Below the pieces are notes generated by a model that saw only the letters and a list, made by a program, of their open reading frames with translations, searched no databases and was not told the DNA's origin. DNA of 64,000 nucleotides from assembly GCF_052324685.1 (NCBI RefSeq), contig NC_135214.1, positions 1,754,317 to 1,818,316 of the forward strand. Reading direction: 5' to 3'. This document shows, in pieces, positions 24,123 to 50,083 of the stretch; positions within the stretch are counted from its first letter, which is position 1, and each line of letters opens with the position of its first letter. Both the position numbers and the translations under genes were made by a program. The stretch is from Brachyhypopomus gauderio (Eukaryota > Chordata > Actinopteri > Gymnotiformes > Hypopomidae).

Positions 24123-27100
24123 TCAGTTTGTCTCCAATGTATCAAACACAGGGTAGATTCTCCCACACTTACTGAAGTCTGTTTTAAATGTGAAAATATT
24201 TTTTCTTTTTTCTGTATTGTAGAATGAAAGTTGGCCTTCCTCCATATCTAGATACATTCCTATCTTAGAGGGCGTGGCCTGATTGAGTTTGGTAACTGGA
24301 TCAGTCAGAGCCATCAGAGATCCTAGCTGCAGACGCAGAGTCCAGTACCCTGTTGTTGTATTCAAATTAATGAAGCCACATCGTGGAGCTGACTCCTGCA
24401 CTACACCCAACCTCCAATCACATTTCCCAGTTACATCCACCTCCCAGTAATGTCTGCCTGTGCTGTAGCCCTTTTTGGCTTGGACACATGGCCAACCATC
24501 ATACTGATGAGGTGTTCGTTGGTGCCACAGCCATGGATCAGACTCTTCATGGGTCTTGGTTCTCACAGAACACCCATCCTGAGACAGCACCAGAGTTGGG
24601 TTTGCTGTGATTGGATCTAGAATGACTTGATCTAGAAATAAAAAAACAAAACTATGATAATAACAGCACAGGGTAGTGTTAGGACCTTCTGTGAATGAGG
24701 CACTAGCATTTCAGAATAAATACAGAAGATGAGGGAAAACACAAGATATGCTAGCCAAACCAGGAAGTGATCATTTGAATACTAATGAAATTCAGATGTT
24801 ATCGTTTAGTTATAATTTGTGTGCTTGGTGATATATCCTGATGTCATACCTGATGACTTCATAATCCATTTCCATACTGAAAAATAGAGAATATTTGTTT
24901 GTTCATATTTGTTTTAACATCACTCTCATCAGAATACACAGAGGTCTGTCATAGAGCAGGAACTGACCTGGAGCTGGGACATGCATGTTATCTGGAAAGG
25001 AAATTACATCATTTTACACAAAGTCACAAAGAAAATATTCTAAAGTTGTGAACTCCATGTTGCTTTCATACCACTGGTTCAAATTTCAGCATTTAAGACT
25101 TCTGCACACACAAAGTAGTTTTGAATACCTCACATAAATACAACTATACTTATGGTAATCGTACCTGTTTTTTTAAACCTCTGTTCAGTCTTAAACCACA
25201 GTTTAAGGAGGGACTCCTGGAGAGATAAAAAGAAGTCATGTAAACAGCAGCATCATACTTCTGTACAGATGTTATCTGGTTCCTCACAGTGAACGTTCCT
25301 CTAGGCCCACGTGATGGTCTGTACCTCTGACTTGTCTTTCAACATGATGTTTCTTATGATCAAGTCCATGACCGGCAGCATGTTGGTCAGCTGTCCTTTC
25401 TTCCACTGCTTAACCAGATCTTTAATCACAGCTTTTTGCTCGGCTGTGAAAAGCAGCCTATTGAAGTCCTAGAGAAAGTAAAACAACTAAATAAAATGTA
25501 GTTTACATATATCTATGTAGGATTATTTCATCCATTTTATTGTGAAAATCTTGTGAAGAAACTGCTGGAAGTTTATAATGTTCAGTTGTATCATCAAAGT
25601 GTGTGATGTGCAAGTTAGAGTTAGGTGTAACATATTTGTATAACAGAAAAACAATATATTACTATTGCATTATTGTTTTACCTGGGAACCTCTTTTAAAT
25701 TCCCTTATCCAATCAGAGAGGATTATTTTTCCATCGTTTAATCTGTGCTGCATATGTGCATATTTCTGTTGCATATCTGATCTTTCGGATGCGTGTTGAT
25801 CTACACCAAACTTTAGCTTTCCTGGTACCTGCTGATACACATCAGGTTTTACTTTAGAGTGAAAATGAAAGTACAAAAAGCAATAAGGCAGAAGCAGAAT
25901 AACTTGAAAGGCACTCATAGTCTTTTCACCTTCATGGGTTGTTGACTCGTTTGCTGTGATGATCTCAGTTCCTCTACCCACTGCAGGATCAGAGTACAAC
26001 CCTCCTCTTCATTTATCTCACCATTACTCACTCCAGACACTATGGTGGCATCTCTAAGCTGAGGATCCGTCCCAGCAAACATGGCAACAGTGGCCCTCTT
26101 TGGGACCACAGCGGGCTTAAAATGTGGCCCTATTTGGGCTGCCCACATTGGACCCCTTCCGTTTTGAACGTGGGGGCGTAACAGGGCCCACTGTTATGGA
26201 CCCAAATGGGCTACCCGCAATCAGCCCAGTTATCCGAGTTTGCCCAATTCAAGCCCTTTCTTAGCCGACTACTTAGCCCACAGTTGCCTACACTGGCCCC
26301 ACATATCCCAGCAAACATGGCAACAGTGGCCCTCTTTGGGACCACAGCGGGCTTAAAATGTGGCCCTATTTGGGCTGCCCACATTGGACCCCTTCCGGTT
26401 TGAACGTGGGGGCGTAACAGGGCCCACTGTTATGGACCCAAATGGGCTACCCACAATCAGCCCAGTTATCTGGCTTTGCCCAATTCAAGCCCTTTCTTAG
26501 CCGACTACTTAGCCCACAGTTGCCTACACTGGTCCCATATAACTTGCCATTGTTCAGCCTATAGCGGTCAATTTGCCACTTTCCCACTCTGAGCCACTTA
26601 TGGACCCAATCAGGGCCACTACTCAGCCCACAGCTGCCTACACTGGCCTCACATATCTTACTCACATTAAGCTATTGCACTGTTCCACCCATAGCCACCA
26701 CCACTTTCCCATAGTTTGCCATCTGTGTATTCTCTTCTTTAAACTACAAATAGATTATCCAGAAAATATTTTTTTTGCCTCTTTTGGAGCCTAAATGCTT
26801 ACCTCATGTAAAAACCACGAGGAGTTTGGAAAAGGGTCAAGTCATTATTTATTTTACATTGAAAAAACATTAAGTTTAAACTTAAACTAGCATTTACATT
26901 TGAACTGCAGATGCAGATGTCTTTTGCATTCAAAAGATTCTTATAATTTATAATGTCACATGCTTGCTGAATATTCTGAGCACAGCAAAAATTATGAGTA
27001 ATATAAAACAGTAAATGAAATATCTTTCAAGTGCAAGAAAAAAATGACACTGAATTCACTAAGAATATTTTAAACAGAACGACTGGAAAACCATAATCAA

Positions 27101-30100
27101 TAACATGAACATCATAAATCAGACTTGGTTCTGTGTGTGTCTTCTCAACATTCTTTCTTTTCTACCTCCATCACGGTCTCTAGCGTTCCTCAGCCACACC
27201 TTGATTGCAGCCTCAACTGCAGCATTGGTCACTTGTTCTGGTGCACTTCTGTGGACTGCCGCTATGTAGTTGTACAGCACAAATGTACAAAAATATTCTG
27301 AATGTTTCAGATTAATAAAACAGGTAGAGACTAAAACACTTTCATAAAATTCTATAAAATGTAAAATACATTTTAAACATCTATTAAGTGTTGCCTTCAT
27401 CCACTATCACTTTACCACAAAAGTGAAAAAGTATTGACTGAGCAATTTCCAGTGAAAACTTAGACAAACTGTACAGATGAATTGCAAGCAAAAGAAATAA
27501 TAAACCAAAATATCAAAATCCTTCTCACCTATGACCACTTTACAGAGGATGAGATCTTGAAAAGATCTCTTCTCCCCAGAGCCTTTCCAAGAGAGCTGCA
27601 GAGCAAGACTGTTAGCAAAGTTGAGGTGATGGAATAAGTTGTAGACACCTAGAAAAAAATATAGATATAAATTTACCTACACATATTCACTGTGTATACA
27701 CAGAGTTGTATATAAAAGCCAGCAACTAGACTGTAGGTGCTTGAAATCTCGAACGCGGCCTATATTTCGTGTTAAGATATATCTCACAAACAGCATGCTA
27801 ATGTGTAAATGTTTAGCTAGCGGGTCTTGTCAACTAACTAAATTTACGGGCGCACTGCAAACATTAAATATACAGTGTGTGTGTGTGTGTGTGTGTGCAT
27901 GCGCGAGCGCGTAATAGGTTTGATAAGACACCCTAACAGCAATGGCGTTTATAACGTGGTAGGGATTACACTATGACCCAGACAGCACAGATACGTCGGC
28001 AAGACGTTTATGCGACGTTCACAGTTACGTCGTTAAAGCATCTGCGGTCGGTCGTTTGCTCACTATCGAACGCCGTTTGGGTCAAAACGTCTAGAATGAC
28101 GTCCGTGTTAACACGTCAAATTTGGACGTCTTAAGACGTACAAAAATGCCGTGTTAAGACGTCACTTTTTAACGTCTTAAGACGTTTTAACGTCTTAACA
28201 CGACGTTTAAAATTGGGTGCTACCACTTCATCAATTGCTGAGGGGAGAAATCAAAACATTGCCAAAAAGCCCCGCCCCCATTGTGAAAGCAGCAAATAGA
28301 GCAAAGAGGACACAGAACCCCTTCTCTTTAACCCCTTCAGACCCGAATTATGTTCCAGTAATGGAAAAAATATATACAAATGCAAATTTCTGTCTGTAAT
28401 GAACTCCAAAACAAGACTCAGTAAAAAAATATTAAATATAATACTTTTATAGTAATTTTTTTTATGTCCACTGCAGTGGATGGTGGGTCTTAACTGTTGT
28501 AAAGCAATGCTATACAATATGTATAATTTTATGGTTTGTTTGTTTTTCCCTTTTTGAACATAAACCTGATCAATAGACTAAAAATGCTATCCAAGTTTTG
28601 GGGAACATCTCTTATTATGAAAAGTAATATATATAACAAGGAGAAATTAGTTGAAATTATGGATGCATGTACGATTCCCAGTACATTCGCAAACCTCAGA
28701 ACTCCCATTGCAATGTGCAAGCCTACAAGGGCTTCTATTTCATGCACTGATGCACTGCCATCTTCAGAAGTTTTCTGATGACTCTGCTATAGTTGGTTGT
28801 ATCAGCAGGGGTGAAGAGGATGAGTACAGGACAACGGTGAAGGACTTTGTCACATGGTGTGAGCTGAACCATCTACAGCTCAATGTGATAAAGACAAAAG
28901 AACTAGTGGTGGATCTAAGGAGGAACAAGGCACCAGTGACCCCTGTGTCCATCAATGGGGTCAGTGTAGACACTGTTGAGGAATATAAATATCTAGGGGT
29001 CCACATCGATAATAAACTGGACTGGGCTAAGAACACTGACGCCCTTTACAAAAAGGGACAAAGTCGTCTCTACTTTTTGAGGCGCCTGAGGTCCTTTAAC
29101 ATCTGTCAGGTCATGCTAAAAGTCTTTTATGAGTCTGTGGTGGCGAGTGCTATCCTCTATGCCGTCACATGCTGGGGTAGCAGACTGAGGAGGGAGGACG
29201 CCAACAGATTCAATAAATTAATACGCAGGGCCGGTGATGTAGTGGGTGTGGAGCTGGACTCTTTGGATGCAGTCTCTGATAGAAGGACGCTGTCTAGACT
29301 GCATGCCATTATGGACAATGTCTCCCATCCACTACACAATCTAGTGATGAGACATAGGAGCACATTCACCGCTTGTCTCATCACACCAAAATGTACCACA
29401 GAGCGTCACAGGAGGTCATTCCTACCTGTGGCCATGAAGCTCTATAACTCCTCCCTCAATACATGACACAATACAGGACACTACTGTTTATTTTCAGTTT
29501 ATTTTTATTTTATTGTTAATTTAATTTTATTTTATTTTATTACATATTATGTGCAATACATACTTATTTTACATTTTATGTTAAATTGAATATTAGGATG
29601 TTTATTCTTTATTATTTTGTACATATTTTTATATTTTATAGAGGTGTTTTATTAAAATAATATGCAAATGGTTGCACTGTAACAAAAGCAATTTCCCCCT
29701 GGGATTAATAAAGTATTCTGATTCTGATGCATGTTTGTAGCCCCTCACAGCAGTTTTTTCAGCATAGACATTTGTCATGGTGGTCATCAGCTCAAACATC
29801 TCTTGTGGAACGTATCATTTGAAGTAAGCATATGGAGTTAATGGTTCAGTGATGTTTGTGATAGGATCTTCCCAAGTAGACGCCACTGGACGTTTGTTCT
29901 TTGTCAGGCTAGCATAAGGATCACCTTCACAATATAAAACAATCTCTTCCTAATTTTCCTGCCCTGATCCTTCCTCATCATGTAGTATCTCAAGAACAAC
30001 GTCTTGTCCTATCACTGGTACTTCCTCATCTCCTGGAATAAATAATAAAAGTAGCTATATGTTCATACATTGTTTTATGGACAACAATGGGAGTGTTGGA

Positions 30101-33100
30101 GTACCAGTATTTAACAGATAGCTACACTTATCTACTCTTGAGAGACATGCACTCTACATCTTCACCATCATTACTATCCAAACTTTCAATTTCTGATATA
30201 TTTCTGCTGTCAAATAACTGAAATATTAATGAATTTTTTAATGGTTCTGATATTCCAAAATTTGTTTTATTTCTTATTTACAGAATGCTTTTGAAGTTTA
30301 TGTATTCAACTGTAATTTATTTGTTCATTTGTAATAAACATCAAGTGACTGAGACTGCTTGCTTATTCTAAAACTTAGTGTAATGACATTAATTCAAAGT
30401 TGTATGTGTGTATGACCTCAGTCTCAACCAATATTTTTACATTAGCTTCCTATAGCCATATACAAAGAATTAACATGACAATCATAGATTTAATATCAAT
30501 TTGTTCTGTCTCACTACCCTGGTATCGTGAAATAACTTACACCATTAACAGTTTAGAACATATTTGGTAAAAGTTATACTTCATCAAGATGTGAGCTAGT
30601 AGCAGTTTAATCACAACCATGGGTATTGTCTTCTGTTTAGCAAGAATCGTTGGTTTCTTCAAGAAACAGGAGTGGGGATTTCAAAGAATGAAGTTTATTT
30701 GTATGTGCTTTTTATTCCAAAGTAATCTGACAGTCTACCAACACATAGGTTACATACAGAAAAAACCACACCCCTTGAGGTGTTAAAGAATTTACATACA
30801 GACATACATTGTCGGGGGAGAATCCCATATGGCAGACTGTAAGATAGCCCCAGCCGGGTGGTTGTTACGTCAAAGGAGCGCACCAAGGTCAAGGGGCTTT
30901 TTATTGTCATTACATCTGAGCACAGGTAGAGTGTGATGAAATTTTGTTCCTCCGGAACCATGGTGCAACACAAATCGACAGTACAACAGACAAAGTGCGG
31001 CAGGGTAACAAAACAATGTGCAAAATGTGCAATCTCACAGCAAGACATTACAATAAATACAACAGGCCAGAGACAATTGAGACATGGTGTAAAGTGCTGG
31101 TGCAGTGCAATGTGGTATGAGATAAGTGATGTACTGTGTCATATGGAACATACATGAACACAGTGGTTCTGAGGTAGTTATTAGGTCCTGTGGGAGAGCA
31201 GCAAATATTTCTGGTGGGGGGTTTCAGTGCGTGTGTGGGGACAGATCAGTGTTGGTGTGTGTCAGTTCCGTGTATGGGAGTTGAGGAGCCTGATTGCCTG
31301 GTGAACGAAGCTATTACAGAGTCTGGAGGTGGAGGCTTGGATGCTCCTGTATATTTTGCCGGACGGCATCAGAGTGAAGAGACCGTGTGATGGGTGGGTT
31401 GGGTCTTCCACAATGCTGGTGGCTTTGCGGATGCAGCGTGTGGTATAGATGTCACTGATCGAGGGGAGAGAGACACCAATGATAGATGCAATCAAGATTA
31501 ACACAATAGGTAAATAGAACAAAGAGAGGTCTCGCGGGAGATCAGTATAACTGGCATATGTATCATATTTAAGAGAGGAAGTTAAGTACCTGTTCAAAAA
31601 TATCAGTTCCCAAACTGTCTCTTGCACTCCCCAAAGGATTTATGTTTTGCCTGAGGTGTCCCAATTGTTCTTCAGTAGGTATAAACTGATTAACAGGGAC
31701 ATCAATTGTTTGAGGCCAGTCAAAGGCAGGCACTCTAGCCCCGTGGCCCTCCGCTGTGGCCGCCCCTGCCCCGTGGCCCTCCGCTGCCCTCAATCCAACT
31801 GTTGCAAACGGGTTCCTGACCATCCCCTGGCACTGTCTGTTCATCTGCATCTGTTCATCTGCAAACACACTTTGAATGCCAGTGTGATGTTGCAAATGTT
31901 GTGACAGACAACCTTGCACAAAAATCTGATACGGTGACATGTGTTGAGCAGTTCTTAACTTGTGGTGGTTCCACTGACTAACAAACAACCTGAGATCACG
32001 GTTTATCCGAGGGAGATAAACAAAGTGAAGAGCCCAGATGTGTATTTCATTACTGGATTCCAATTTTCGTTCATTCTCCAGATATACAAACAACGAATGG
32101 TAGACCTTTGTAACACCTCTCCACACATCGCCTCACAGTCTCTCAATGCGCTGGTTATGAGTGCTCCTCCCTCGTAAAGCACTTCCCCTGCTTGAGCCTC
32201 GGAAGACATCCATAAAGAGACACATCACATTGTTTTCCCCTCCATGGTCACATCTGACCCTTGAAGGGACACCATACTGGCTGACCGCTGCAATGAACAG
32301 ATCCATTACAGTGTCACTTCTGTTGTTGTTCGACGCATGAAGGAACACCACAAGTCTGCTGTAACCATCAATACCTCCATGGATCACAATTCTCCACCTA
32401 AAAAATATGGAAAAAGATCAGGGAGTGACAGAAGAAGAAAAAAACACATTAAATTAAAAGCTATTCACACAAATAGTTTGAATGTAGCTACAACGAGGAC
32501 TACGCCTCTATGCTATGGTTGGGCTTTCATAGTGGTGGGTGGGGGGGGGGGGGGGGGGGGGAGATCACTGCTGCATTCAAATGAATTCACACTTAATATA
32601 ATGTCATTATTAGTCCCCCAATATCCCCCACTTATAACTAACAGACATCTTTATATCCAACCAACTTGGGCAAGCATTGTATGTGCAAGAGATAAACAGT
32701 AGTGTTTTTATTCTCCTGTTTTAACATATAACCAAAAATCTTAAATGATAGTTGGGATGATGATTATTATTTTTGTAATAGTATAAAGATTCCAATCCAT
32801 TACACCAGACTCTTAAATAACAGTTATTATAAAGAGTACAGCAACCATCTTTTATAGCCTTGAATTGGAGGTTGGGTGACTGCTGCCCCTACATTTTAAT
32901 ATTCCATTCTTGCAGTTTGACCTGATTAGGTCCCAAATGAGCCTCCACCTGTTACTATATGGATATAAGTGGTACGCAGTTCAGTAGTTGTTGCTTTTAA
33001 AGACTTGACACCTATTGAATTTATGATTCAACAGTTACATTTAGAGCTGTTCCCATCCATTTCTAATACCATCTTGTTCCATTAACCCTGTTCCCATCCA

Positions 33101-36100: not shown

Positions 36101-39100
36101 TCGCTGTACTCCGTGGTCGTCTGGTAATTTTAGTCCCGTCCGGATCCACATGTCTGAGTTTATACATGCAGACATCACCTCGCGTTTAATAAAACAGCTA
36201 TATGTCCACTGCCACGCACCGTAGTTACACGTTGGGCGCGCGTTTTCACGGAGATCCACGTAAAGACAGCGGCGAGCGAAAATGGATTTACTGGATTTTT
36301 TAATGGATTTATTTTATTTTATTTAACGGATTTATTTAGCTATTTACATTCATTAGCGATTTTTTATAATGTGTTTTCTGTATTGGTTTAAAAAAATAGC
36401 TTAACTTAAACGGAGATCTTAAATGCTGAACTGAACAGTAGTAAAGTTAAAAGTTAAAAAGGAATCATCAGAGTTGGCAGTGTGACATTATTAAACATGC
36501 TATCACGTGACAAGGCGATGTCATGTGACCGAGAAAGCCAAAAACTCACGGGTCCTCCTGTTTTTTCAATTGCTGTCCGGATGCAAGAGTTTTATCACTG
36601 AGTACAAGGGTGAAATATTTTTCACAGACGTCCCCCTGAAAAACTAATCCCGTCCGGATAGGGCTTTAGTCACACGGTAACTCGCAGTTGTAATTTGAAA
36701 CCTCCATTCATTTCAATGGGGGGCTTAAACATTTTAAAACTTAAATTCATTCAAATCTATACATCCTATCGACTCAAAAATTACATAGCGGCTGTTTTAT
36801 TTGACAAGCAAACTTACCATGTTGATGTTGATTGCTAGCTTCCTGAATTAATTCACTGATGAGTCCAAGCATTATCAGCCACTTCGGCTTCAACCAGTCG
36901 GCCACTGGCCCAGCGAATGCTCGAGGCCATAGTCTCCAATCAGTTTCAGTCACATAAAACGTGATATAAATTCACTGTCGTAACATGACCCGTGTTCTCT
37001 ACTTTCTACTACAAATATGTTGATGAACTCGGTTCAGAATGAAATACAATTCACTTTAAAATATCACGAAGCCACAACTACATTTATGTGAAGAAACCAG
37101 AGTATATCAAATAACTTTTGTACACTGTACTAATTGATAGCATACCTAGTTATAACAGGTTGTACATTATCAAGTTGCTGATCATCCGACGATAAAACTC
37201 GTGTACATTCTAAAAATGTTCTACGGCAGTCGTTCAAAAAATTCCTGGAAGCCATCGCGTTCTCTACTCGACCAAATTACCTGCGCAAATAAACCCACAT
37301 GGACTATTCCAAACACACCTTCACCGCTTCATCTAAGTCACGTGATAGATACGTAGCCCCAGAACCAGCCCACGTAAGGCCCATGTGACCACAACGTAAA
37401 GCCCATGTAACCACAACGTAGAGGCCATGTCACCGCAACGTAGAGCCCATGTGACTAAAACGTAAGCCCTACGTCAACAAGGGGTGGGTATATTGGCGGC
37501 CACCAATAGTATGGAAGTCTAAACATCTAAACTAGGGATGCACCGAAATGAAAATTCTTAGCCGAAACCGAAAACCGAAAATGAGGAAACCAAGGCCGAA
37601 AGCCGAAAACCGAAACACATTATGCCAATTATTAGTAACACTGGATTTATGGCTAACCTCACTAAAATCAAGGCATTGCTATTCAAAGAATAAATCAACT
37701 ACAAAATTTGATTTGAAAATATTTATTTAGCACTGACATTACAGTAATGCATATTATAAAATAAAATTAGTGGTGGGCCGTTAACGGCGATAACGCTGAC
37801 AACGGCCGACCACTAATTAAATTTAACTCACTTGCAGACCGTTTTTATCTAAGAGGATAAATATATGTATTTTATACGAGTAAAATTTAATTATAACTGA
37901 CTGGCCTGAAAGATAAATATAAATTCTCTCATAAAACGTGACGTGAGTTGCAACAACATTAAACAGCTCAGGTAAACACACTTCTGAGAAATGTTGTCTA
38001 CTCGGCAAAACATAAAGCTGGGCGTACACTGTGCGATTTTTGGCCCATTTTCAGCCGATTTTTCACTCGTGCGACTATTTTTGCGATCGGCCGAGTTTCG
38101 GCTCAATCGCGTGTCGTGCATCGTTTACACAGGTAAACGAGGAACGATTCACACCTCACGACCAACTCCCGATCAGAAATCGCAGCGTCGCAAGAATATC
38201 AAACATGTTTGAAATTCAAATCGCTCCTCGTGAGATTGCTTGAGAGCGTCGGGTCGTATAGTGTGAGTATATGAATCGTGAGCTGTGAACTTTTAAACCC
38301 TGCGATTTAGTCGTACAGTTTGAGCTGGAGCTGAGTACACGATTTAAAATATCGTACAGTGTACGCCCAGCTTAAGGCAACTAGTTCCATAATTTTTGGT
38401 GTAATGTCCTTTGCCTTGGCGCCATCACTGGAAAACTTTTTTGCTAGCCTTTATCCAAATAAGCGCGAGCAGGTGGCGATTTTTGCTTGTGTCATCACAA
38501 CACATTGTTTCGGCTGTGTTGTTTCGGTGATGAAAGTATTTCGGCCGAAAACCGAAAATGCAAATTTAAGCCATTTCGGCCGAAAATTTTCGGTGGCCGA
38601 ATTTTCGGTGCATCCCTAATCTAAACGTCTTAAGACGTCCAAAAGTTACGTGTTAACACGGCACATTTTGTCGTGTTAAGACGCTAAAACGTCTTAAAAC
38701 GTCAAAAAGTAACGTCTTAACACGGCATTTTTGTACGTCTTAAGACGTCCAAATTTGACGTGTTAACACGGACGTCATTCTAGACGTTTTGAGCCAAATG
38801 GCGTTCCATACCTTACCAACGTCGTTTTTGGATCAAGCCATGCGAGTCCGTTATTCCGTCGAGCGTTTTCGCAGAGTTTGCATGTTTTGTTCTTTTAAAG
38901 ATCTTCACGCGAGCAGCAGTAGCCTATTTATTCTTGTTCTGCATATAATCCCAGGTAGACAACTAGCTAGATAACGAAATAGTTGTTTGTGGAGTTTAAT
39001 TCCTATTTCCTGTTATTCAGATTTTGCCTTTAAATGATTTAAAGAGACAGCCAGTTTACAATTTTGAAAAGTTGCATTAACCAATTCACATGCACAAACA

Positions 39101-42100
39101 AAAACTTAACAAATTCTAAAGTGTACATAAAATATTATTTTGAAAAGTTGTATTTTAGAACCAATTCACATGCATAAACAATTATTAAAAAATGATAATG
39201 TAAATCACATTATTATTATTCAAAATAATCATCTTTCGGCAATTGCGTGTCAGTCTGTCCATGACAATTGCGAACAGTCCTCATCCTTTAACTTCCACCA
39301 CCTGATCTTAGGTGGCGCTCTCACTCTCCTCTTCTTCACCTCTAAAACCATACTACATATCACCATCCTATGCTGTTTAGCTACACTCTCCCCTGGTAAC
39401 ACCTTGCAATCACTAACCTCTCTCAGGTTTTGTCTCCTAGAGGAAATAGTCGACCTGTGTGTATCTTCCCCCACTCTTACGTTACCCTGTGCTCTTCCTT
39501 TTTCTTAAAGTAAGTGTTAACTACAACCATCTTTATCTTTATCCTCTTAGCAAAATCTACCACCATTTGTCCTTCCGTATTCCTTTAACACCATATAATA
39601 ATAAAAGTGTTGTCGTTGTTTAACTATGATATTGTAAATCATTTTCTCAGTGCTGTAACAAAAACGCAACTGTCCATGTATGAACACGAAGGGCTTAAAT
39701 CGACTTGATCACGTTGATTCAGCGTGGTCTTCCGCGATGAAGTCTGTCAGGCGCCAGACGAAGCCAGTCTTTCATCGACTTTTCTGCATCAGCTTCACAT
39801 GGGTGGGACAGCTGAGGATTTCTCATCGCAGATGCTGTAAGTACAACATTGTTTAATTAGAAAATTACTTGTATGTTTTAGTTTCTAAGATAATTTTGGG
39901 CCTAAGGATGAGCCTGTTGCTAATAAGCCATTTAGGCACTATTGCTAAGAAGTGCTAATGAAAAGCTGTGTACATGAAGTTTAGTGGCTGTTCAGATACA
40001 GAAACTCTATGGCTTGTGGGTGTGGAAAAATGAATGGGATGGAAAGAGGGATGAAAACACAACAGATGAGTGCAGGTACTAATTAGTATGCCTGTGGTTT
40101 AGAGCAATACGGCACTATGGATATTATACTTTGAATACATTTTTCCAATGACTGCTTTTCAATTTGGCACTAATTTCTCTTCATAGAAGAGTATGTGCGT
40201 CTTAAGATTTAAGAGTGACACTGAATTGTTTCATGTAATATGCATTGCAAATCATTTCTGAGATATGCCATCTTAAAATTTCTTAAAAAGTCAGTTATTT
40301 TACTCAGTGGTGTCCAGTTCTATCCAGAAAGGGGCACTTTGGCTGCAGAAGCACACATGATAATTTTTTAAAAACTGATACCAACATGAAGCCTTTGTGG
40401 ATAAGATTATTCACCCCTGTTGTGACTATACACATCAAAACTAAGGATCACCAACCAAGACGGTAAATGTCAATTATAAAACAAAGCTATTTGTGATTTG
40501 TTTTTTATGGTACTATATTTGTCATGTTTGGTATACTATGGTCTTATTTTCATACTTACATACTACAAGTTCCTTGATGCGAGTGTGCCCAATTCCTTTT
40601 TTTCTCCTCTGCCACACCAGTTCCCTAACCACAAGGCCCTGACTGCCCCCATCTAATGACAGCTTTGACATCTGTAGACAGACAGAAAGATAAATAAAAA
40701 CCAGGGACCAAATTCATAAAAGGTTTTTAAAATTTACAAAGGTATGAGTACAAACATTAAGGAGTTCATAATAATGTTCCTTAAATCAACCCTCAGGATG
40801 GATGGATATATCGTTCTTAATTTTGTACTCGAAAGAAAAGATAATTACTTTGTTCCTAAATAAATGTTTATCTTTTACAAGATGTTTACAAAATGTGTAC
40901 TCTGTGTGAGTTTGTTAAAATGGTATATTTCAGTACTGACCTTTTTTTTTGTGTCACTGTTGGTCAAATCATGTTCTAGACGCACAAAATCCTCTGCACA
41001 CTGGAGGGGGAGTATGTTTTCTTCCAGATCTTCTTCCAGTGGTGTTGGAAGATTTCTGCTCCTCTCTCCTGCCATTGCCTGAACAACTGCAGTTAAATGC
41101 TGCAGTTGCAGCTGCACCTCACCAATAGCCTCAAGGATGCATCAATCAGTGGCTGTGACATATATAACATACACAACAATAAAATTTAAATGAATATTCA
41201 AAAAGGTTTGCATTAACATTATTATATACATGGATATATTTAATTTGAGCAAGGATGTTTAGTGAAATTGAGTTTGTTTGGAATTAAATTTTTGAAAACA
41301 TACGAGTGCACTGGGAGGGTATTAAACGTCCTGAGGCACGAGCTCTTGATGCTAAAAAAGTAGTAAAAACATGCAGTAATTAGAGTCAATGCAATGGACA
41401 AAAATAAGGATAAAATAAGGATATTGTCTTAAACTGCTGTGCCCAACAACAAATATTTAATATGAAGACCCAGTGTATGTGTAATATTGCACTGCTTAGA
41501 GTAAACATTTTAAACTTTCAGTATGTGTCCTACCATGAGGTGGAGATGTGAGACCAATCGGAGGACTCCTATTGTGGCTGTGGCGCTGTGGAAAGAATAT
41601 GTCTTTGGTAAGTACATGTGTGTTCATATGTGTTTGTAATTTCTTTAAAAAGGTACACTGCAGATACTGTCTGCATTTTAGGGAACAAGCTAAGTTTACA
41701 TGGAGTATCTGTTTTACTGTACCCTATAACCTTACTTTGATAGGAGGACATTGTTCTAAAATCGACATTCTGACTGTGTAGTGGCGGGTTTGATGCTGGG
41801 GGGGAAACATTGACACAATAGGTTTAATCAGACTTAATTGATCAGATTTTAATGACATAGTTTAGATCAGCAGTGCTTTCTTACTTTGAAAAGTATCCAT
41901 TAGAATATGACCACTGAGTGGTGTCAGCAGAGCAAAGTGTAATGTTCACAATAAGTGTGTTTTTAGCATCATGAATACTATTATAACAATGCTGCAATAC
42001 GTGACTCCCTCTGGGATTAATAAAGTGATCTATTTATGTTTCTAAATGGGTTGAAATGTGGTGTTGTATTAATTTAGTAGGTATAATGTGGAAGTATGCA

Positions 42101-45100
42101 GGTTTTCTTTGTTTTACACTTTTCCCCCTCATTTTCAGAAGTGTCGACTGGATTCCTGGCCCCTATTCTGTGTGTGAGTAGTTCTGCTAGGAGATTTATT
42201 GAATGTTAACATTGCTGATATATTTCTTTTAGCGTTGTTTAGTGAAATCCCTGAAGTTAACCTCCATCCAATGCTGCCTTACTCTGGGTAGACTTGGGGC
42301 TGTGAATACATAAATGGCATATGAATATAAATACATTTAAGTCATTCTTTTTTGTATTTCAATGCAGGTATGATCAGGTACCTACAAGTGTTTGGAGGGT
42401 TTACTGGTTTCCCCTTGGCTGTAAGCTGTGGTTTTGATATTGGAGCTAAGAAGAGGTAAGGACATTAGTCCTATACTATCGTCATTACATTAGCTGCCTG
42501 TTAGATTCCGTATTAACTATAAAATACTTTTATTAACATATAAAACACTGTATGGCTTAACTCCAGAGTATCTTAGTGAACTTATTGATCATTACAACAC
42601 AGCACGTTCACTTCGTTCACAGGACGCAGGGTTATTAACTGTTCTTTTATTAACTGATCAAAAAGATCACAGCAGGTGGAAGAGCCTTTTCTTTTAAAGC
42701 TCCACAACTGTGGAATAATCTTCCTGCCTTTATGCGGGACTCAGACACAGTCTCAATGTTTAAAACTCGACTAAAGACTTATCTGTTTAGTTTGGCCTTT
42801 GAATAATCTGTTACATATTTACCACATCATTTATCTTTCTTCTCCGAGGTTCACCTGGGGAGTAACACTGCAGTCGGAGACTACAATACCATTATCATCA
42901 CTCCGACACGGAATGAAAACCTGCCGTTCATCACAAGACATTTACATTGACAATATCAACACCTAGAACTTTTATTCTAGTTACCTTATACTTAGCCTGA
43001 TTATGTGATTTGTTTGTGACTTGTGTATTCGTCTGTATAATTTGTGTGTTAACGGGCCGCCCAATGGAGGATGGGTTCCCTTTTGAGTCTTGGTCCTCCC
43101 AAGGTTTCTTCCTATTCCCCACCATCTAGGGAGTTTTTCCTTGCCACTGTCGCCTTTGGCTTGCTCATTAGGGATTTGGACCCATAGTATTGTTAACCTT
43201 GTAAATCCTGTAAAGCGCTTTGTGACAACTTGTGTTGTGAAAAGTGCTATACAAATATATTTGATTTGATTTAGTAAGGGACAGTGCATTTTAATTATGT
43301 ATGTATATATTATTTGGAGTTTAATATATTTGTAGAGAACATTCTGTACATCAGGGTTTCTCAATCCTGCTCCTACACAATATTTGGGTGTTTTTGTGCT
43401 TACTGTGTACTTGTGGTGGTGGCCGAGGTAATTTGCTCTTGGGCCTCTTTGCTTTGGTTGAGACTCTTCATCTGACCACCAACATGGTCTCTTTTTTGAT
43501 CTGTAAGTAAGTTATAGTTGAAGTCATCTAAATCACAATATATACTTATGTCTAGATTACCTCAGTGGAAGATAAATGTACCTTGATTTAGGTCGGTTTT
43601 CTCCATCGGAAATAAGGTCGGATGTGTCACATGATGTCTTCCATTTCCTGTTGACATTGTCTAGTGCAGGGGTACTCAACTAAATTTGTCCGCGGTCCAA
43701 TTTTGGCAGATAGCGGTCACCTGAGGTCCGGGGGGTGGCGAACGCAAGTTGTTGAGCGGGGGTGGCGAACGTAACACTCGTGACGGAGTGTTTTTTCAAT
43801 AGCCCTGAAATAAATACTCCGGTTTAAAATTAATTCTCCCGTCAAAATGAATAAATATGGTTTTTTTGGGTCCGTATCCAGTTAATCAGGAATGAGATTG
43901 GGTCCGGACAGGACTGCGTTCGGGTCCGGATACGGACCGCGGTCCGCCAGTTGCCGACCCCTGGTGTAGTGTATCTAAAAAGTAAGGAAATAAGTTAGCC
44001 AACAACACTAACGATTACACTCCCTTTCCCTTTTTTGTCAATGTTTTAGTTACAAAGAAGCTAATCTAAGGCGAACTAGCTAGCTAACCTAGGCTACAGC
44101 TAACGGACAAGCTGGTTTGAACTCGCGGTGTTGTCTCGCGCGATTGCCGTCAGGGCCGTTGTAGTAAAATGATGGTTAGCTTAGATGCTAACACTTTAAC
44201 CGTAGGCCGTTGTAGTAAAATGGATAGCTAAGATTTAACTTTCAGAGATAGTTAGATTCTTGGAAACAACCAGTTATTAAACATTACTTCATTATTTTAC
44301 CTCAGTAGAGTTATAACTACATAACCTACCTGGGTTTCCCTGAAGAAGTCCGTCTGTTGCTCACCCACAGGTACAGGACTGCTGGACGCTCATTGGTCCT
44401 TTCCATTATACGTCAACATTCTAGAACGTCATGGCGAGTGTATTGACCCCCAGTAATTTGCCAGGACAAATGTATTAGAGAAGGATGATTATACATTGCT
44501 TAACTGTATTGTCCTATATTAATGAAACTCAATCAACATGAAATGGTCTCAGCTGTGTAATTCTAAAGTGAATTTGACCTACCATCAACAGAGACTGAGT
44601 TACAAGGGGGTGCATTTTACGGCAGGTGCTTGGAAGCAACAAGGTAAATATAAAGCAAAGTTATTAATATACAGTGGTATTATAAATCACAATAAATCAC
44701 ACACATACTAGAAATCATGCCAAATGCATTTTTGAGAATGTGTGTATTGTCATAATTACACTAAAGGGCGTTCCTGCGAAAGACAGGCTGTAACGTGCAG
44801 CACTCTCCGTCATGCACGTCAGCAGGATCGTGGTGGTGTCTTGGCTTTGAACGTGAGTGTACAGTAGACTACAGCAGTTGTTGTAACATTATAATTTTAA
44901 TTTAAAAGTTCACAAGAACTTTATCCGTTTTTACACTTGAACCCAAATTATGATGATGGTCAAGTGGCATTTGTCAAGATCTTTTAGTTACTTGTATTAA
45001 AGATTTTGTTGTCTTAACAGTCAACCTTATTATTTAGCAATGCAGGCTTATCATTTTGATCGATCTAAACTGTCCTTAGTTTGCAGAGTGCATATTAAAG

Positions 45101-48100
45101 GAAATGGCTGTCAACACCCAAACCACTCAAGAGGCAGTCAATGAGCTGAGGCTGGGCATTGCCATGACTCTCCTCCAGGAATCTGGCGTGTTGTCTTTGT
45201 GGTTGGTCACTGTAAATGGCATAAAATTTATGTCCTCTGAAATGCATGTTCTTTATTAAAATAATATACGTTTTATGCTAGTTAATTAGTACCACATCCT
45301 GTATGGACATATGTTTGACATGTAAAAATGAGGAAATGTATTAATACTTTCATCTCAGACAATCTGAGCAACCTGTGCCATTACTGTGGAATGGAGGATC
45401 ATGATCAAACAAACTGGGTAAGCGCAGCAACACATCTAAATACATTGATCTGCATGTACTATTGTTGAGATATTAGTACTACAAATATTAGGCTATTAGT
45501 CGTACATAATGTCATAATATAGCATTTTCTCAGGGATCCTTTAAATCCTACAAACTACGAATTATACTCATTTATAATTATGCTCAGTTATACTGTGAAT
45601 TAGACCCATTTTCTCAAATTTCTATCAGAGACCTTGGAACAGGCTGTCTTTTCTCAGTTTTATTAGTATCTTGAGAGGAACAAATTTCTTTAAGTCAACC
45701 ATCTGTGGTACAGACCAGGGTATTCACCAGATATTGCTGTATTGTCAATAACAAAACCTCCCCACAAAGCCAGGAAAAGGTTGTCTTCTGTTCACATCCT
45801 ACTAGATTGGTCTACTGTTTTTGATACTGTGAACTACTACATGTGAATTTCATCACTTTCTTGTGATGCTTGGTTCTCATCCTATCTTCAGGGTTTATCT
45901 GGTCATGTAGCCTGGGATGGCTCACACACAACCTCACCTTCAAGTGTCATTGCTGGAGCTCCTCATGAGTTTGATCTTTTCTCTTGAAATGCTAAATCAA
46001 TACGAGCAACATCAGTAAGCTCTAGTCATCTTTACACTTGACTACTGTAACTCACATTTTGCTGGCTTCTAGAAAGCATTCAAAATACTGCAGCTCATAT
46101 TGTTTGTCAACATGTGATTCTTGTTGAAAACACCATGCTGGCTTCCTGTTCAAGTAAGGAAGGTCTAATTCTCACATTTTCATTTTCAAAAGGCTCATCC
46201 TTTCACTGCTTTGCATCCAGGCTTCTACCTCTGGGCCCTTGTAATACACACTCTTATTCCTGATTGCCCTCCCGTTATGACCCGTGCCCGTGACTACGAC
46301 TCTGTTTATGGAATCCCCTTGAATAAATCTCGCTCTTCTCAGCGTTTGTGTCCGCCTCCCTGCTCTGTGTCAAGCAGAATGTTACACTCACCTTTTAGGC
46401 AGTTTAATATGCTAACTCTGACATGCAAATGAGTGCAGTAAATTCTCAATCATTTATTTTGTAACATCTTTGCACTTAACTTATCAATAGAGCACTGCAT
46501 CAAATCTTTGGACTAAAAATGTAAAGCATGATAGTAATTTCTACATTTTAGATGGGCACCTTTCAGTTAGACCTGCTTTTCATTTGTTCCAGATATGCTG
46601 TGACAACTGTGAGAGATGGTACCACCATGACTGCGTCCAGAAGCCTCCAGTTGATAAAGATTATACATGTCCAGCTTGCAAATAAAATGCATTAATGGCT
46701 GGTTATTATTATGTATTATTATTGGTGATGTTTATTGTTTGTGATTTTAAATTATTGTTTTTGTTAAATTACTGTTGTTGCTGTTATTATTGTTGTAAAT
46801 ACTTGGCCTAACCTTGCACTGTTGGTGTTTTTTTTTTTCTTTTGTAAACTTCTTGCTTTAGGTTCTGCTGTTATTTATTTAACTGTAAAATAAAAAATAT
46901 TACCAATTATTTCTATAAATGTGCAGTAGCTCTCACTTTTTGTTTGAATGTTGTTGATTCTAGCTCAAAATCATTGTAGCCATATAGACACAACCAACCA
47001 TCTTTACAGATGCAACACCATAACTTTAATTTAAAATGTATATGCATGTCAGTTAGAATATACAGAAAAATAATGTTATAATTATATCTCAGTATTAAAT
47101 ATAACAGGATGCACTGCTGTCAGGCCTCGTCAGTACATGATTTTTCTAACAGACTGAAACAAACACAGCACTCACATACAACACAGTATGTGTCGAACAC
47201 AGGACATAACTATCCATGCCTTCATTGCAGCTGTTGTTGATGCCATCAATCAATTAAAACATTACTTAGCAAACTCTTTAATATGCCAACGTTTTGTAAA
47301 ATCAAGGGCAAATAGTAACTGCCCACCCGTGGTAGATAGATCAGCACAGTAATTCCAATGACGCGCCCACCGAACTGCGACGAAACAGCAGGGCATGTTA
47401 GTTCTCAGCGCACCGCACTCACCGATAATCAGACGCCAAAAGAAGCGCCATACCCCGACGGTATTAAGCTGGTCCACCAAAGGAAGCCAGGCCCAACAAT
47501 AACTTGCCACCGTTAGAGGTGCTGAGAAAACCGGATGACAGAAGGGAATCCGCACCCGTAACCATACCCCCGCTATTTATAATGCCAGGATTAACCTACC
47601 CCGCGACTCACACGGCTCCACCGCAATTTACAATTAGGGAGGGAGTGGGGTTGCCCCAAAAATCTCACTCTGCCACATCAGGATGGGAAACGTTGTTTTG
47701 ACGTCGCAGCGATGCAATGGCGATGAATATGACGCTCCCGCTTTAAATCGTAAATTAGATGTGCATATGATGTATATGCGACGTTCGAAAATGGAACGCG
47801 ATGTTTTTACGATATACTGATGTAAATACGACGTCTCTGAGACGTACTTGTGCTGTCTGGGTGAGTAAAAATGTTAACTGCTTCGAAATTTTGTGCATAA
47901 TTATTCGAAATTTAAGTGTACGTATCAAATGATTGTATTGGTCAAAACATACCTTACAAATTCGTAATCGATGAACAGACGAGAACCGAGAAAGAGCTGG
48001 CAATCTTCTCAACAAACGATTTGCGCGTGTTCTTCTTGCCGCGATTTAATTATGTGCCTGTTATGTGCCTGATGAAAAATGTTAAGGGCCATCATACAGC

Positions 48101-50083
48101 TAATTGACTGAGGCAAAACGCCTGTTTTTGAATCACAAATCGTTTAAGTTTTGTGTTTTTGTTTCACTCAGTATATTTTTTTATAAGATGAAAAGCGAAC
48201 AATTGTGGTTAGACACCCAACACTCGCAACAAAAAATATAAAGTGGGATGCAAAATAATATTCTACATGAGTGTCCACCAACTGCTGTTTTAACTACAAT
48301 TCATCAGACTACAATACACAAAAGTGGGACTGAGGACTTGTTTAGTTTTAAAGTGCTACTTTTAAAGGTGTGGCATATGATGACCAACCATAATAACCAC
48401 ATCTGATGTGAGACTTGAAAAGAGACACAATGCAGCATATTCAAGTAAAAGCAGCTGGGCTGCTGTCCTTAATTTTCTTTACAGTAATCAAACATGCATT
48501 TCTTAGTGTGGGGTTGACTATGGGCAAGCCCTGGTGCACTGCCCACATTTAACCTGTAATGGCCAGAAGTGGGCTAATGGGCACGGGCCCAGAGTGGGCT
48601 AAACTATTTTGTGCCCTCATGAGGTTATCAGTGGGCAAGCCCAATGGTGCACTGCCCACATTTAACCTGTAATGGCCAGAAGTGGGCTAATGGGCACGGG
48701 CCCATAGTGGGCTAAACTATTTTGTGCCCTCATGAGGTTATCAGTGGGCAAGCCCAATGGTGCACTGCCCACATTTAACCTGTAATGGCCAGAAGTGGGC
48801 TAATGGGCACGGGCCCATAGTGGGCTAAACTATTTTGTGCCCTCATGAGGTTATCAGTGGGCAAGCCCAATGGTGCACTGCCCACATTTAACGGCCAGAA
48901 GTGGGCTAATGGGCACGGGCCCATAGTGGGCTAAACTATTTTGTGCCCTCATGAGGTTATCAGTGGGCAAGCCCAATGGTGCACTGCCCACATTTAACCT
49001 GTAATGGCCAGAAGTGGGCTAATGGGCACGGGCCCAGAGTGGGCTAAACTATTGTGTCCCATCATGAGGTTATCAGTGGGCAAGCCCTATCCCTCACTGC
49101 CCAAAGGAAACCCAAAATGGGCCCAAATGGGATTGTTTGCTGGGGTGTGTTTGGTCAATATTTTGTCAGATTATTATTTAATTTTCATTATTAGTATTGT
49201 TCATTAATAATAGTATTACTACTTAAATGTCATCAATTGTTCATTATAGTGAAGCAGTGTAGAGTTTAAGGGGTTTCTTCGTAATCTTTACTATTTACCT
49301 GAACAATTCTGTCCAGCTCAGCTGCTAGGTCTCTGAGGATACACCTGGAGTCCTCTATGGAGAAATCTGTTTGTTCATGCTTTTGAGGCTCATTTTGGAG
49401 AACTGGTACATTTGTGTCTTTCGGACTTAAAATCTGAACAGAAGCAAACAAGCAAAGTAAATTTTTGACAATGTTTTTAACACTTTTAAAATATATTATT
49501 TTTTCTTCGAAATTGAGCTTACTTTGAAAGGAAGACGTTTGAAAATCTTCGTAAGAATTTGATCCTTCAGCTAGAAGCAAGATAAAGGGGTTAGACATTA
49601 CACAGACATGTCTATGACAACACAATGTTCCAGTTAGAGATCACGGAACCGCCCCTACGTGTTTACATCTGTTCTTGTACTTGTGTCTGTGTCTGTGTGT
49701 GTGCATGGGTGTTCGTCTTCATCATGCGTTTCACTTGTTCCTTGTCTTGTTAATATGATGTGCTACAATTGTGTCTCGTTTGTATTAGTGTATTTAAGTG
49801 TGCGTCATGTCTAGGTCGACCCAAGGTCGTTGGGTCTACGTAGAAGGAGGCCATGACTGTGTGTACTGTGCTGCACTGTTGATATTGGTTGTGGTTTCTG
49901 CAACACAATACCTGTTAACCTTTAACACATTGTGCTTAAATATGATTTATTCTCCTTCTGAGTTTGTTACCTTCAAATGTGGTTTAACAAATGGCTGTGA
50001 ACAGCAGGCCCGTTCACTTCTCTGCTCTCTGGGTGGATTTACCAGACTTCCAAGACTGTGGTAAGCCCCAGTACTGCAGCTTT
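24123..50083 (-). CDS. B30.2/PRY-SPRY protein, copy 2 (10 exons seen; first exon not found)
   Basis: Exons on the minus strand: 50083-49971, 49570-49523, 49433-49299, 26058-25930, 25828-25682, 25468-25325, 25216-25165, 24991-24968, 24876-24850, 24631-24123. Each matches its copy 1 counterpart, keeps its borders and phase, and has no premature stop. One exon is 3 bp shorter (43 against 44 codons), one has a 21-bp expansion (KYAHMQH, 49 against 42 codons), and the last ends 18 bp earlier (FDTLETN). The sum with a 37-nt first exon would again be 1365 nt. The first exon and promoter of copy 1 have no match up to 64000; homology ends near 52947. The intron between 26058 and 49299 holds the 23-kb insertion, so the protein may be poorly made or not made, but the open frames argue that the copy is young or still constrained. 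Confidence 0.75.
26071..26700. repeat. Left subterminal tandem repeat (236-bp unit)
   Basis: The unit starting cccagcaaacatggcaacag at 26071 recurs at 26307 with few differences, and a decayed third copy follows to about 26700. The terminal inverted repeat is therefore itself duplicated at this end. Units are rich in gccca/gggc words, partly inverse to those at the right end. Confidence 0.85.
26701..27118. other. A/T-rich spacer
   Basis: Downstream of the DUF4806-like last exon on the minus strand; may hold its 3' UTR. Nothing else is visible. Confidence 0.4.
27119..27650 (-). CDS. DUF4806-like gene, last two exons
   Basis: Exon 27650-27530 is bounded by tttttttctag and GTGAGAAG. In the open frame it encodes [15 protein letters not shown] and [12 protein letters not shown], matching the 'L...LA....W.G...K..F..L.l..vi' region of DUF4806. 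The last exon (about 27275-27119) reads [20 protein letters not shown] and RRHTQNQV then stop, the usual 'E.AIK.WL..A.DR.GGR' end. The probable N-terminal exon lies at 40941-41129, beyond the integrase gene. Function of DUF4806 proteins is unknown; they are often multicopy and transposon-associated in fish, as I recall. Both exons are open. Confidence 0.6.
28069..28215 (+). repeat. acgtc-rich inverted arm, left
   Basis: Starts gaacgccgtttgggtcaaaa and is built of acgtctt/aagacgt and cgtgttaaca words, many self-complementary (acgtcttaagacgt). It is inversely repeated at 38626-38811 with about the same order of words. Confidence 0.8.
28216..30060 (-). pseudogene. piggyBac element remnant split by a LINE
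   Basis: Minus strand, upstream piece (30060-29740): [20 protein letters not shown], then [22 protein letters not shown] and [19 protein letters not shown], with two stops. Downstream piece (28765-28530): [20 protein letters not shown] and [13 protein letters not shown]. Together these follow the N-terminal order of piggyBac/PGBD transposases; the catalytic core is absent. ttaaccccttcagacc at 28329 looks like a piggyBac terminus on its TTAA site. The LINE at 28770-29740 sits exactly between the two pieces. Confidence 0.65.
28770..29740 (+). mobile_element. 5'-truncated LINE (L2/Rex-like), RT C-terminal part intact
   Basis: Open from the reverse-transcriptase catalytic box FSDDSAIVG through [69 protein letters not shown] to the usual C-terminus [17 protein letters not shown] (stop 29464). 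The 3' UTR ends aataaagtattctgattctg. Truncation begins immediately at the FxDD box. Related 5' parts are visible at 61995-64000. Confidence 0.85.
30061..30780. other. A/T-rich spacer
   Basis: No gene or identifiable repeat. The left end of the piggyBac element (toward higher coordinates) should be here but was not found. Confidence 0.35.
30840..31480 (-). mobile_element. LINE 3' end (Rex1/L2-like), minus strand
   Basis: The minus strand near 31445-31262 encodes the reverse-transcriptase C-terminus ([38 protein letters not shown]). A long UTR follows and ends near 30890 with a tgacaataaaaagccccttg-type tail. 5' truncated. It abuts the last exon of the integrase gene. Confidence 0.7.
32537..32563 (+). 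repeat. Poly-G tract
   Basis: About 20 G with one early interruption, in the intron between integrase exons 5 and 4. It may be unstable in assembly. Confidence 0.8.
34975..35330. repeat. G/T-rich minisatellite
   Basis: Diverged units of about 50 bp built on gtgtgtggtgtatatgtgtg and gggtatgagagatgta, within an integrase intron. The His/Thr/Tyr-rich minus frame across it is an artefact. Confidence 0.8.
35942..36666. mobile_element. 725-bp MITE, TIR AAGCCCTATCCGGACGGGAT
   Basis: Left end aagccctatccggacgggat (35942) and the exact inverse on the right (to 36666), with TA outside both (35940-35941, 36667-36668). Inside, gtcctc and cccgtccgga words recur near each end. No coding capacity. It lies in the intron between integrase exons 3 and 2. 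Confidence 0.8.
37372..37472. repeat. About 24-bp tandem repeats upstream of the integrase start
   Basis: Four to five units of acgtaaagcccatgtgacca-like sequence, 120-220 bases 5' of the integrase ATG at 37255. The position suggests subterminal or promoter-associated repeats; acgt is shared with the acgtc arms. Confidence 0.75.
37533..38618. mobile_element. hAT element, 1086 bp, TSD ATCTAAAC
   Basis: Starts TAGGGATGCACCGAAA and ends with the inverse cggtgcatcccta. The 8-bp flanks atctaaac are identical (37525-37532 and 38619-38626). Ends are rich in ccgaaaaccgaaa/ttcggccg words. No transposase remains. It contains a complete Harbinger MITE (38016-38372). Confidence 0.9.
38016..38372 (+). 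mobile_element. Complete Harbinger-type MITE, TSD TAA
   Basis: Starts agctgggcgtacactgtgcg and ends with the inverse cagtgtacgcccagct. taa flanks both ends (38013-38015, 38373-38375). Nested in the hAT element at 37533. It is in the opposite orientation to the copy at 16398-16724. Confidence 0.9.
38626..38811 (-). repeat. acgtc-rich inverted arm, right
   Basis: Reverse complement of 28069-28215 in word order, somewhat longer, ending ccaaatggcgttc. Beyond 38811 the similarity stops. It lies just upstream of the integrase gene start once the hAT insertion at 37533-38618 is discounted. Interval 28069-38811 may therefore mark the integrase-bearing unit. Confidence 0.8.
38812..39224. other. Spacer
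   Basis: Right of the acgtc arm; a donor-like exon end (aatcccaggtag) near 38950 is not interpretable. A 30-base segment (aaaagttg...accaattcacatgca) is repeated directly at 39068 and 39144. Confidence 0.35.
39225..39590 (-). pseudogene. RTE-type LINE fragment
   Basis: With a frame change the minus strand reads [20 protein letters not shown] and [16 protein letters not shown], preceded by [16 protein letters not shown]. The DCKV.PGE...QHR and K.R.P...WW/RL motifs belong to the endonuclease-RT linker of RTE/Rex3-type fish LINEs. Only this piece survives. Confidence 0.65.
39591..40600. other. Spacer without supported gene
   Basis: Contains a plus-strand exon-like segment near 39720-39840 (ends gatgctgtaagt) that I cannot translate into a known domain. 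Otherwise A/T-rich. Confidence 0.3.
40612..40652 (-). mobile_element. SINE 5' fragment
   Basis: The minus strand reads gggggcagtcagggccttgt and continues ggttagggaactgg, the 5' end of the tRNA-derived SINE seen whole at 9790-9986. The remainder is absent. Confidence 0.65.
40941..41129 (-). CDS. DUF4806-like gene, N-terminal exon
   Basis: Bounded on the minus strand by ccttgag and gtcagt. It reads [20 protein letters not shown], then [20 protein letters not shown] and [13 protein letters not shown]. The 'LPL...E.....LE..L' block is the start of DUF4806. The exon that should follow (short, ending in a Gly-Gly-type turn) was not found. If it belongs with 27119-27650, the gene spans about 14 kb and encloses the integrase gene and the nested mobile elements. 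Confidence 0.5.
41534..42456 (+). other. Possible exons of an unknown plus-strand gene
   Basis: Three segments have acceptor/donor-like borders: to 41607 (ctttg then gtaagt), 42139-42173 (ttttcag then gtgagt) and 42368-42456 (aatgcag then gtaagg). The last is open as [19 protein letters not shown]. Phases do not join uniquely and no family is recognised. They may be upstream exons of the PHD-finger gene. Confidence 0.22.
42480..43265 (+). mobile_element. 5'-truncated LINE, (TTGAT)n-type tail
   Basis: With frame changes it encodes the reverse-transcriptase C-terminus ([14 protein letters not shown], then [14 protein letters not shown] and [17 protein letters not shown]). The 3' UTR is the same as at 13185-14100 (gggccgcccaatggagg, gaggtttcttcc, aaagtgctatacaaata, ttgatttgat). 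Confidence 0.8.
43667..43963. mobile_element. hAT-type MITE, 297 bp
   Basis: Ends caggggtactcaact and agttgccgacccctg. The 8-bp flanks are gtctagtg and gtgtagtg (one mismatch). Contains tccggata/tccgcggtcc words near both ends. Non-coding. Confidence 0.8.
43972..45084. other. Spacer, possible 5' region of the PHD-finger gene
   Basis: A G/C-rich exon-like block at 44765-44853 is open as [17 protein letters not shown] and ends with the donor gtgagt. It may be an upstream exon. The rest is A/T-rich. Confidence 0.3.
45085..46685 (+). CDS. PHD-finger protein, 3' exons
   Basis: Exon 45361-45418 reads [19 protein letters not shown] and ends at gtaagc. Exon 46592-46685 (after gttccag) continues [16 protein letters not shown], then DYTCPACK and a stop. 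The joined piece has the eight ligands of a compact PHD finger: CxxC, CxxC, HxxC, CxxC, with the aromatic WYH before the His. An upstream open segment (45090-45200: [20 protein letters not shown]) follows an acceptor but its donor is uncertain. PHD fingers read histone tails; in a transposon one could guide insertion or chromatin tethering, which is inference. The C-terminal finger and stop are clear, followed by aataaa signals (46683, 46889). It lies between the candidate inner termini and may be element-encoded. Confidence 0.65.
45419..46591 (+). other. Intron of the PHD-finger gene with LINE-like scraps
   Basis: The 1.17-kb intron contains a pseudo-coding stretch around 45650-46400 (bits such as [11 protein letters not shown] and [18 protein letters not shown] phrases in changing frames) that looks like a very decayed LINE reverse-transcriptase C-terminus. 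Weak. Confidence 0.3.
46900..47860. other. Right interior of the candidate inner element
   Basis: After the PHD gene's polyadenylation signals. A minus-strand frame of 97 codons (47555-47262) shows no recognisable motif. From about 47690 the sequence turns into acgtc/gatgta words leading to the CCCAGACAGCAC inverse end at 47861. Confidence 0.35.
47865..48514. other. Spacer between the inner and outer right termini
   Basis: A/T-rich with no gene. Counterpart of 26701-27976 on the left if the two elements are nested. Confidence 0.35.
48515..49080. repeat. Right subterminal tandem repeat (113-bp unit, five copies)
   Basis: cagtgggcaagcccaatggt occurs at 48629, 48742, 48855 and 48961 (the last gap is 7 bases short, having lost ctgtaat), with a further start at 49073 and a diverged first unit before 48629. 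Words gggcacgggccc and agtgggcta echo the gggccc/gggc words of the left-end repeat. Immediately precedes the right terminal inverted repeat. Confidence 0.9.
49640..49870 (+). repeat. Old LTR-like repeat in the copy 2 intron
   Basis: Collinear with 2975-3240 in copy 1 (gcatgggtgttcgtcttcat, catgcgtttcac, gtgtatttaagtgtgcgtca), so it is orthologous to that pre-duplication insertion and not a separate event. Confidence 0.6.

Follow-up and report, generated by a model that had tools for sequence, protein, structure and literature searches.

A 23-kb block in Brachyhypopomus gauderio DNA read as a nest of cut-and-paste DNA transposons

A block of 23 kb found beside a B30.2 gene copy of Brachyhypopomus gauderio is very probably a nest of cut-and-paste DNA transposons, in which an innermost element (I) lies within a middle element (M) that lies itself within an outer one (O). 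Three nested pairs of ends are present in the block, accompanied by full or partial duplications of their flanks, and a broken integrase gene is located wholly inside the innermost pair. The size of 23 kb would then be due to nesting and not to a single giant mobile unit. The initial annotation had left the choice between a giant element and a smaller one grown by nested insertion. The end pairs of M and I inside the block speak for nested growth, while a single 23-kb giant is unsupported. If so, one candidate giant transposon is removed and the case shows that nesting can mimic a giant. The features discussed below are compiled in Table 1. Coordinates refer to the window, which is the whole stretch of 64,000 nucleotides that was analysed.

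Table 1. Position of the nested elements, their genes and their flanking duplications in the window
Feature	Position	Strand	Length	Remarks
Outer DNA transposon O, as block	26071..49144	.	23,074 bp	Exact 11-bp terminal inverted repeats (TIRs), GT flanks, paralogous empty site
GT target duplication of O, left copy	26069..26070	.
GT target duplication of O, right copy	49145..49146	.
Left end of O	26070..26541	+		236-bp unit, two copies in tandem, 97%
Right subterminal array of O	48521..49087	+		113-bp unit, 5.1 copies
DUF4806-A of O	27119..27610	-		Last two coding exons: 27530-27610, 27119-27265
Middle DNA transposon M, as block	27977..47861	.	19,885 bp	Exact 13-bp TIR, CCCAGACAGCACA/TGTGCTGTCTGGG
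TGA target duplication of M, left copy	27974..27976	.
TGA target duplication of M, right copy	47862..47864	.
DUF4806-B of M, tentative	39743..41078	-		Segments 40941-41078, 40564-40662, 39743-39832
PHD gene of M	45104..46685	+		Three exons, by inspection: 45104-45187, 45358-45417, 46593-46685
Innermost IS3EU-like element I	28064..38810	.	10,747 bp	Inverted arms, TATCG..CCATA ends
Integrase gene of I (rva_4, PF24764)	31572..37255	-		Five exon regions: 37255-37145, 36939-36792, 34529-34347, 33662-33375, 32405-31572
Possible piggyBac remnant inside I	28529..30240	-		Split by a LINE-like segment (ORF 28651-29466, +)
MITE-like segment inside I	35942..36666	.		Inverted ends
hAT-like element inside I	37533..38618	.		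8-bp duplication ATCTAAAC on both sides
MITE inside the hAT-like element	38016..38372	.		TAA flanks; relative at 16394-16722, 84%

The outer element and its empty site

The own sequence of O amounts to ~3.2 kb and is found in two parts (26071-27976 and 47865-49144). It begins with CCCAGCAAACA (26071-26081) and terminates with TGTTTGCTGGG (49134-49144), which are the exact 11-bp inverted ends attributed in the initial annotation to the 23-kb block. The GT announced on both flanks is also in place, the junctions reading CCGT/CCCAG at the left and CTGGG/GTGTG at the right, and so are the subterminal tandem arrays that had been described, with the 236-bp unit twice on the left side and the 113-bp unit 5.1 times on the right side. 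The left TIR of O occurs at both 26071 and 26307 because the 236-bp unit is tandemly duplicated. With the left terminus doubled in this way (26071-26306 and 26307-26541), excision of a shorter element, from 26307 onward, is in principle conceivable too.

Taken alone, terminal features of this kind are not rare. Shuffling the window 20 times in 2-base blocks produced 11 cases of a CCCAG..CTGGG pair combined with a flank duplication of 2 or 3 bp, when at least 11 of 13 TIR matches were required. Past the 11-mer, the two ends of O are hardly similar (local score of 14.0, attained by one of 500 shuffles). Chance pairs not being rare and the ends of O barely alike, the outer TIR and the GT duplication are therefore not decisive on their own.

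The borders of O are firm through a paralogue, copy 1 of the B30.2 gene in the same window, which places them independently of the TIR and of the GT. To the left of the block, 537-2477 aligns with 24123-26067 (90%), and to the right 2484-3507 aligns with 49150-50121 (79%). Similarity halts at 26067 and restarts at 49150, and the paralogue therefore breaks precisely at O, in agreement with the firm borders initially claimed. The empty-site comparison, which concerns the borders of O, was carried out by joining the flanks and aligning them with 2431-2560 of the window. The score is 72.0 when one GT is removed, against 68.5 both when nothing is removed and when four left-side bases are removed, a difference that corresponds to one 2-bp gap. 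Of the gap-free alignment proposed earlier for this empty site, the removal of a single GT is retained as the best-scoring solution, but the gap-free stretch over the joined junction has several mismatches to the paralogue.

The middle element and the DUF4806-like and PHD genes

Inside O, an exact 13-bp inverted pair is formed by CCCAGACAGCACA, which starts at 27977, and TGTGCTGTCTGGG, which extends up to 47861. They delimit M, whose own sequence is ~9.1 kb long. The similarity between the ends of M extends inward, with a local score of 25 that none of 500 shuffles reaches (best shuffle, 16). TGA is found on both sides of M, a match that taken alone has a 1-in-64 chance. O and M are the only CCCAG..CTGGG pairs of the whole window to show both a duplication of 2 or 3 bp and at least 11 of 13 matching TIR positions. 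A LINE-like segment recognised by inspection (42740-43271) is also found inside M, and its 42844-43271 portion has 87% identity to 13677-14090.

The terminal likeness of O and M is limited to CCCAG, both elements having 2-3-bp duplications (GT and TGA). Comparison of the left end of M with the right end of O gives a score of 5.0, attained by 494 of 500 shuffles, and that of the left end of O with the right end of M a score of 5.5, attained by 412 of 500. Their ends are rich in repeats, which are tandem arrays in O and ACGTC/GACGT words above expectation in M (four in the 87 bp of one end, six in the 262 bp of the other). The tandem-repeat search of the window reported no tandem array at the ends of M.

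The DUF4806-A exons of O are identical to residues 72-145 of P0121, a Brachyhypopomus gauderio protein that was the one match found. Such agreement would fit DNA of this species or of a near relative, or else a recent move of the element; taken with the nearest integrase relatives, from Astyanax, it points to a characiform or gymnotiform fish. P0121 carries DUF4806 (Pfam, E=2.8e-7), and the DUF4806-A tail alone gives no Pfam match. For residues 1-68 of P0121, nothing in the window matches below E=0.6, so the upstream part of DUF4806-A is missing here. Its upstream exons are absent beyond M as well, where the nested model predicts them unless they were lost.

M probably has a DUF4806-like gene of its own, a tentative assignment drawn from segments that are collinear with P0121 over the DUF4806 domain. 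The alignment scores 66, the best of 1000 shuffles reaching 51, for segments that were picked by eye; two additional exons, 43410-43502 and 43578-43649, are no more than guesses by eye. The first segment matches Pfam DUF4806 with E=0.1 (13.3 bits for a cut-off of 25), the composite gives E=0.097, and the segment at 39.7 kb compared alone with P0121 gives E=2.8. The selection by eye and the E-values of 0.1 and 2.8 are the reasons to keep DUF4806-B as tentative. If it is real, there is no need for one gene extending across the inner border. A single DUF4806 gene across the inner left border was considered and rejected, the upstream part of P0121 being unmatched and M having its own weak DUF4806-like segments. 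Excerpts of a study in zebrafish (PMC11075544) discuss DUF4806 genes as possible chromatin factors; some DUF4806 genes might be transposon genes.

The spliced reading of the PHD gene is stop-free and codes 78 amino acids, with a PHD finger in the ORF of the last exon (Pfam, E=3e-6). An 80-amino-acid protein of Hypomesus transpacificus, the one candidate scored, is related to it (66% over 97%). That Hypomesus has it as a short stand-alone protein suggests that the PHD reading of M is a real gene. The integrase gene, DUF4806-like exons and PHD finger listed initially as contents of 26071-49144 are thus found there, but they are best read as genes of different elements, the integrase belonging to I, the PHD gene and the tentative DUF4806-B to M, and the DUF4806-A tail to O.

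The innermost element and its integrase

The arms that bound I were identified by a repeat finder as inverted copies of 141 nt (28064-28204 and 38670-38810; 95%). Between the left end of M and the left arm lie 87 bp. The clear similarity of the two arms sets in at TAT on either side (TATCGAACGCC at the left; at the right, in the inward direction, TATGGAACGCC). The hexamers flanking I, GCTCAC and CCTTAC, are equal at 4 of 6 positions, for which the chance is 3.8%. The arm regions (28064-28206 and 38623-38810) are composed of CGTCTTAAGACG-type palindromic units.

Complete IS3EU families are described in excerpts of Kojima and Bao (PMC10045372) as having always TA..TA termini and usually 6-bp duplications. 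I resembles this group (IS3EU/GingerRoot) by its TA..TA ends, a TIR longer than 30 bp, an integrase-core protein and 6-bp flanks that match in part. It departs from the consensus TAYGG..CCRTA, given for fungal IS3EU in excerpts of Kojima (PMC12730594), by its left end TATCG, only the right end conforming. I was likened to IS3EU through published descriptions of termini and duplications.

IS3EU elements have an IS3/IS481-like DDE integrase that lacks HHCC; the integrase of I has a strong Pfam match to rva_4 and a weak one to rve. When compared to Astyanax proteins the gene is broken: the stretches that align contain four or more in-frame stops as well as deletions and a frameshift. Its relatives are numerous, 3039 of 5991 candidate proteins matching at E up to 0.001. 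Among the best 120 of these 3039, the nearest are two proteins of Astyanax mexicanus, P0001 (69% over the query) and P0007 (88% over 38%), and the taxa represented are foremost fish, with molluscs, echinoderms, a coral and a nemertean also present. P0001 features weak helix-turn-helix matches ahead of the core, each below cut-off. All integrase matches fall between the arms of I, for which reason the multi-exon integrase is best read as the putative transposase of this nested element rather than of the 23-kb block.

I hosts other insertions. The hAT-like element is flanked by an 8-bp duplication of hAT type and was named from its ends and this duplication, no transposase being seen in it; 8 bp is the usual duplication length of hAT according to excerpts of PMC12730594. 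The possible piggyBac remnant has a DDE_Tnp_1_7 match below cut-off (E=0.05) on 29720-30060 and no Pfam match in its 28529-28786 part. The LINE-like segment that splits it was read as such by inspection, the sole Pfam match of its ORF being ALKBH8_N (E=1.4e-12).

Nesting order, alternative readings and known transposon systems

The order of insertion, O then M then I, is deduced from the nesting. The CCCAGCAAACA-ended O would have entered beside the B30.2 gene copy, duplicating GT. The CCCAGACAGCACA-ended M, carrying the small PHD gene and probably DUF4806-B, would then have entered O with duplication of TGA, and would in turn have received the integrase-encoding, IS3EU-like I at 87 bp from its left end. 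I would later have gained the hAT-like element along with MITEs and further segments, and its integrase gene degenerated. O and M may have been mobilised by a transposase acting on their CCCAG ends, the integrase having presumably moved I only.

A Pfam scan of stop-masked frames detected no transposase in 38811-47861 (six of six frames) and none in the own sequence of O (10 of 12 frames, all except two on the minus strand of the right part); in I, two of six frames were scanned in this manner. The scan is insensitive and missed the PHD domain, so these are weak negatives. The matches below cut-off were COX7C (0.1), Tis1_ImmP (0.63), PHO4 (0.008) and Fer4 and YABBY_N entries (0.19-0.71). A search of viral contigs was negative for the O end and yielded 10 pattern matches for the integrase, none of them a relative.

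It is very unlikely that the block is one giant autonomous element (26071-49144) with integrase, DUF4806 and PHD genes, moving as a unit with duplication of GT. The paralogue does confirm its outer borders, and the DUF4806-like exons from ~41 kb to 27.1 kb are readable as one gene over the inner borders. However, two more transposon end pairs lie inside and the integrase is bounded by its own 141-bp inverted repeats. The P0121 exons upstream of the shared tail differ from the exons at 41 kb in the window, and M may have a C-terminal segment of DUF4806 type at 39.7 kb, so that one cross-border gene is not needed. A more serious competitor, yet unlikely, has two layers only, O and a 19.9-kb middle element using the integrase as its transposase, the repeats at 28064-38810 being subterminal with one copy inverted. 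The location of the integrase gene within M would fit this organization, as would the 87 bp that separate the left arm of I from the left end of M and the many ACGTC/GACGT words which, by sight of the alignment, the arms of I share with the M ends rich in them. It is opposed by the sharp start of the arms at TAT on both sides, with flanks in which 4 of 6 positions match. An IS3-like integrase has moreover been published in combination with TA ends (excerpts of PMC10045372); none of the searches made here revealed one associated with a 3-bp duplication and CCCAG ends.

An assembly artefact or a set of unrelated short repeats, the inner ends being then separate, unpaired MITEs of the same family, would be in line with the fact that 64 kb should contain exact inverted 13-mer pairs by chance and with junctions known from assembled sequence. 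This reading is very improbable, the similarity of the M ends exceeding the 13-mer (0 of 500 shuffles) and TGA being found on both sides. The nest of I in M in O is the organization retained here.

Polintons have a 6-bp duplication and long TIRs, CACTA elements are also known with repeats under their ends, and the canonical Harbinger target duplication is TWA. The 23-kb block resembles Maverick/Polinton and other giant DNA elements by its overall size and integrase-like gene, and differs from Polintons by its 2-bp duplication, its 11-bp TIR and the location of the integrase in a nested element. The duplications of O and M (GT, 2 bp; TGA, 3 bp) are within the 2-5 bp reported, together with CA..TG ends, for the CMCT clade (EnSpm/CACTA and kin) in excerpts of PMC12730594, whereas their CCCAG..CTGGG ends are distinct. 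They also fall among the 0, 2 or 3 bp that the same excerpts give for the PHIS superfamily (PIF/Harbinger, ISL2EU), in which PHISTA duplicates TA (PMC12730594). GT and TGA misfit both this TA and the TWA of canonical Harbinger, and the insensitive Pfam frame scan detected no IS5-like DDE transposase of PHIS type in O or M.

It is rather doubtful that O and M represent a so far undescribed DNA transposon group of fish, defined by CCCAG..CTGGG ends, 2-3-bp duplications, repeat-rich ends and genes for DUF4806 (BEN-type DNA-binding) and small stand-alone PHD proteins, and mobilised by an as yet unrecognised transposase. The ends of O and M that are unlike past CCCAG, and the lack of a reported tandem array at M, argue against a single group. 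No published description of these ends was found in the listed titles and abstract openings of papers on fish and 2-bp-duplication transposons, IS3EU, IS481EU and DUF4806/BEN.

The window has other repeats outside the block. Direct repeats at 54657-54905 and 59234-59480 (97% over 250 bp) enclose matches to rve (2.5e-12) and to a retroviral SH3-like domain (9.8e-12) at 56600-57200, and 54657-59480 looks like a Copia-type LTR retrotransposon. The direct repeats at 50587-50928 and 52497-52838 (99%, 1.9 kb apart), which have a relative at 5354-5580 (86%), are possibly LTRs or two copies of one repeat.
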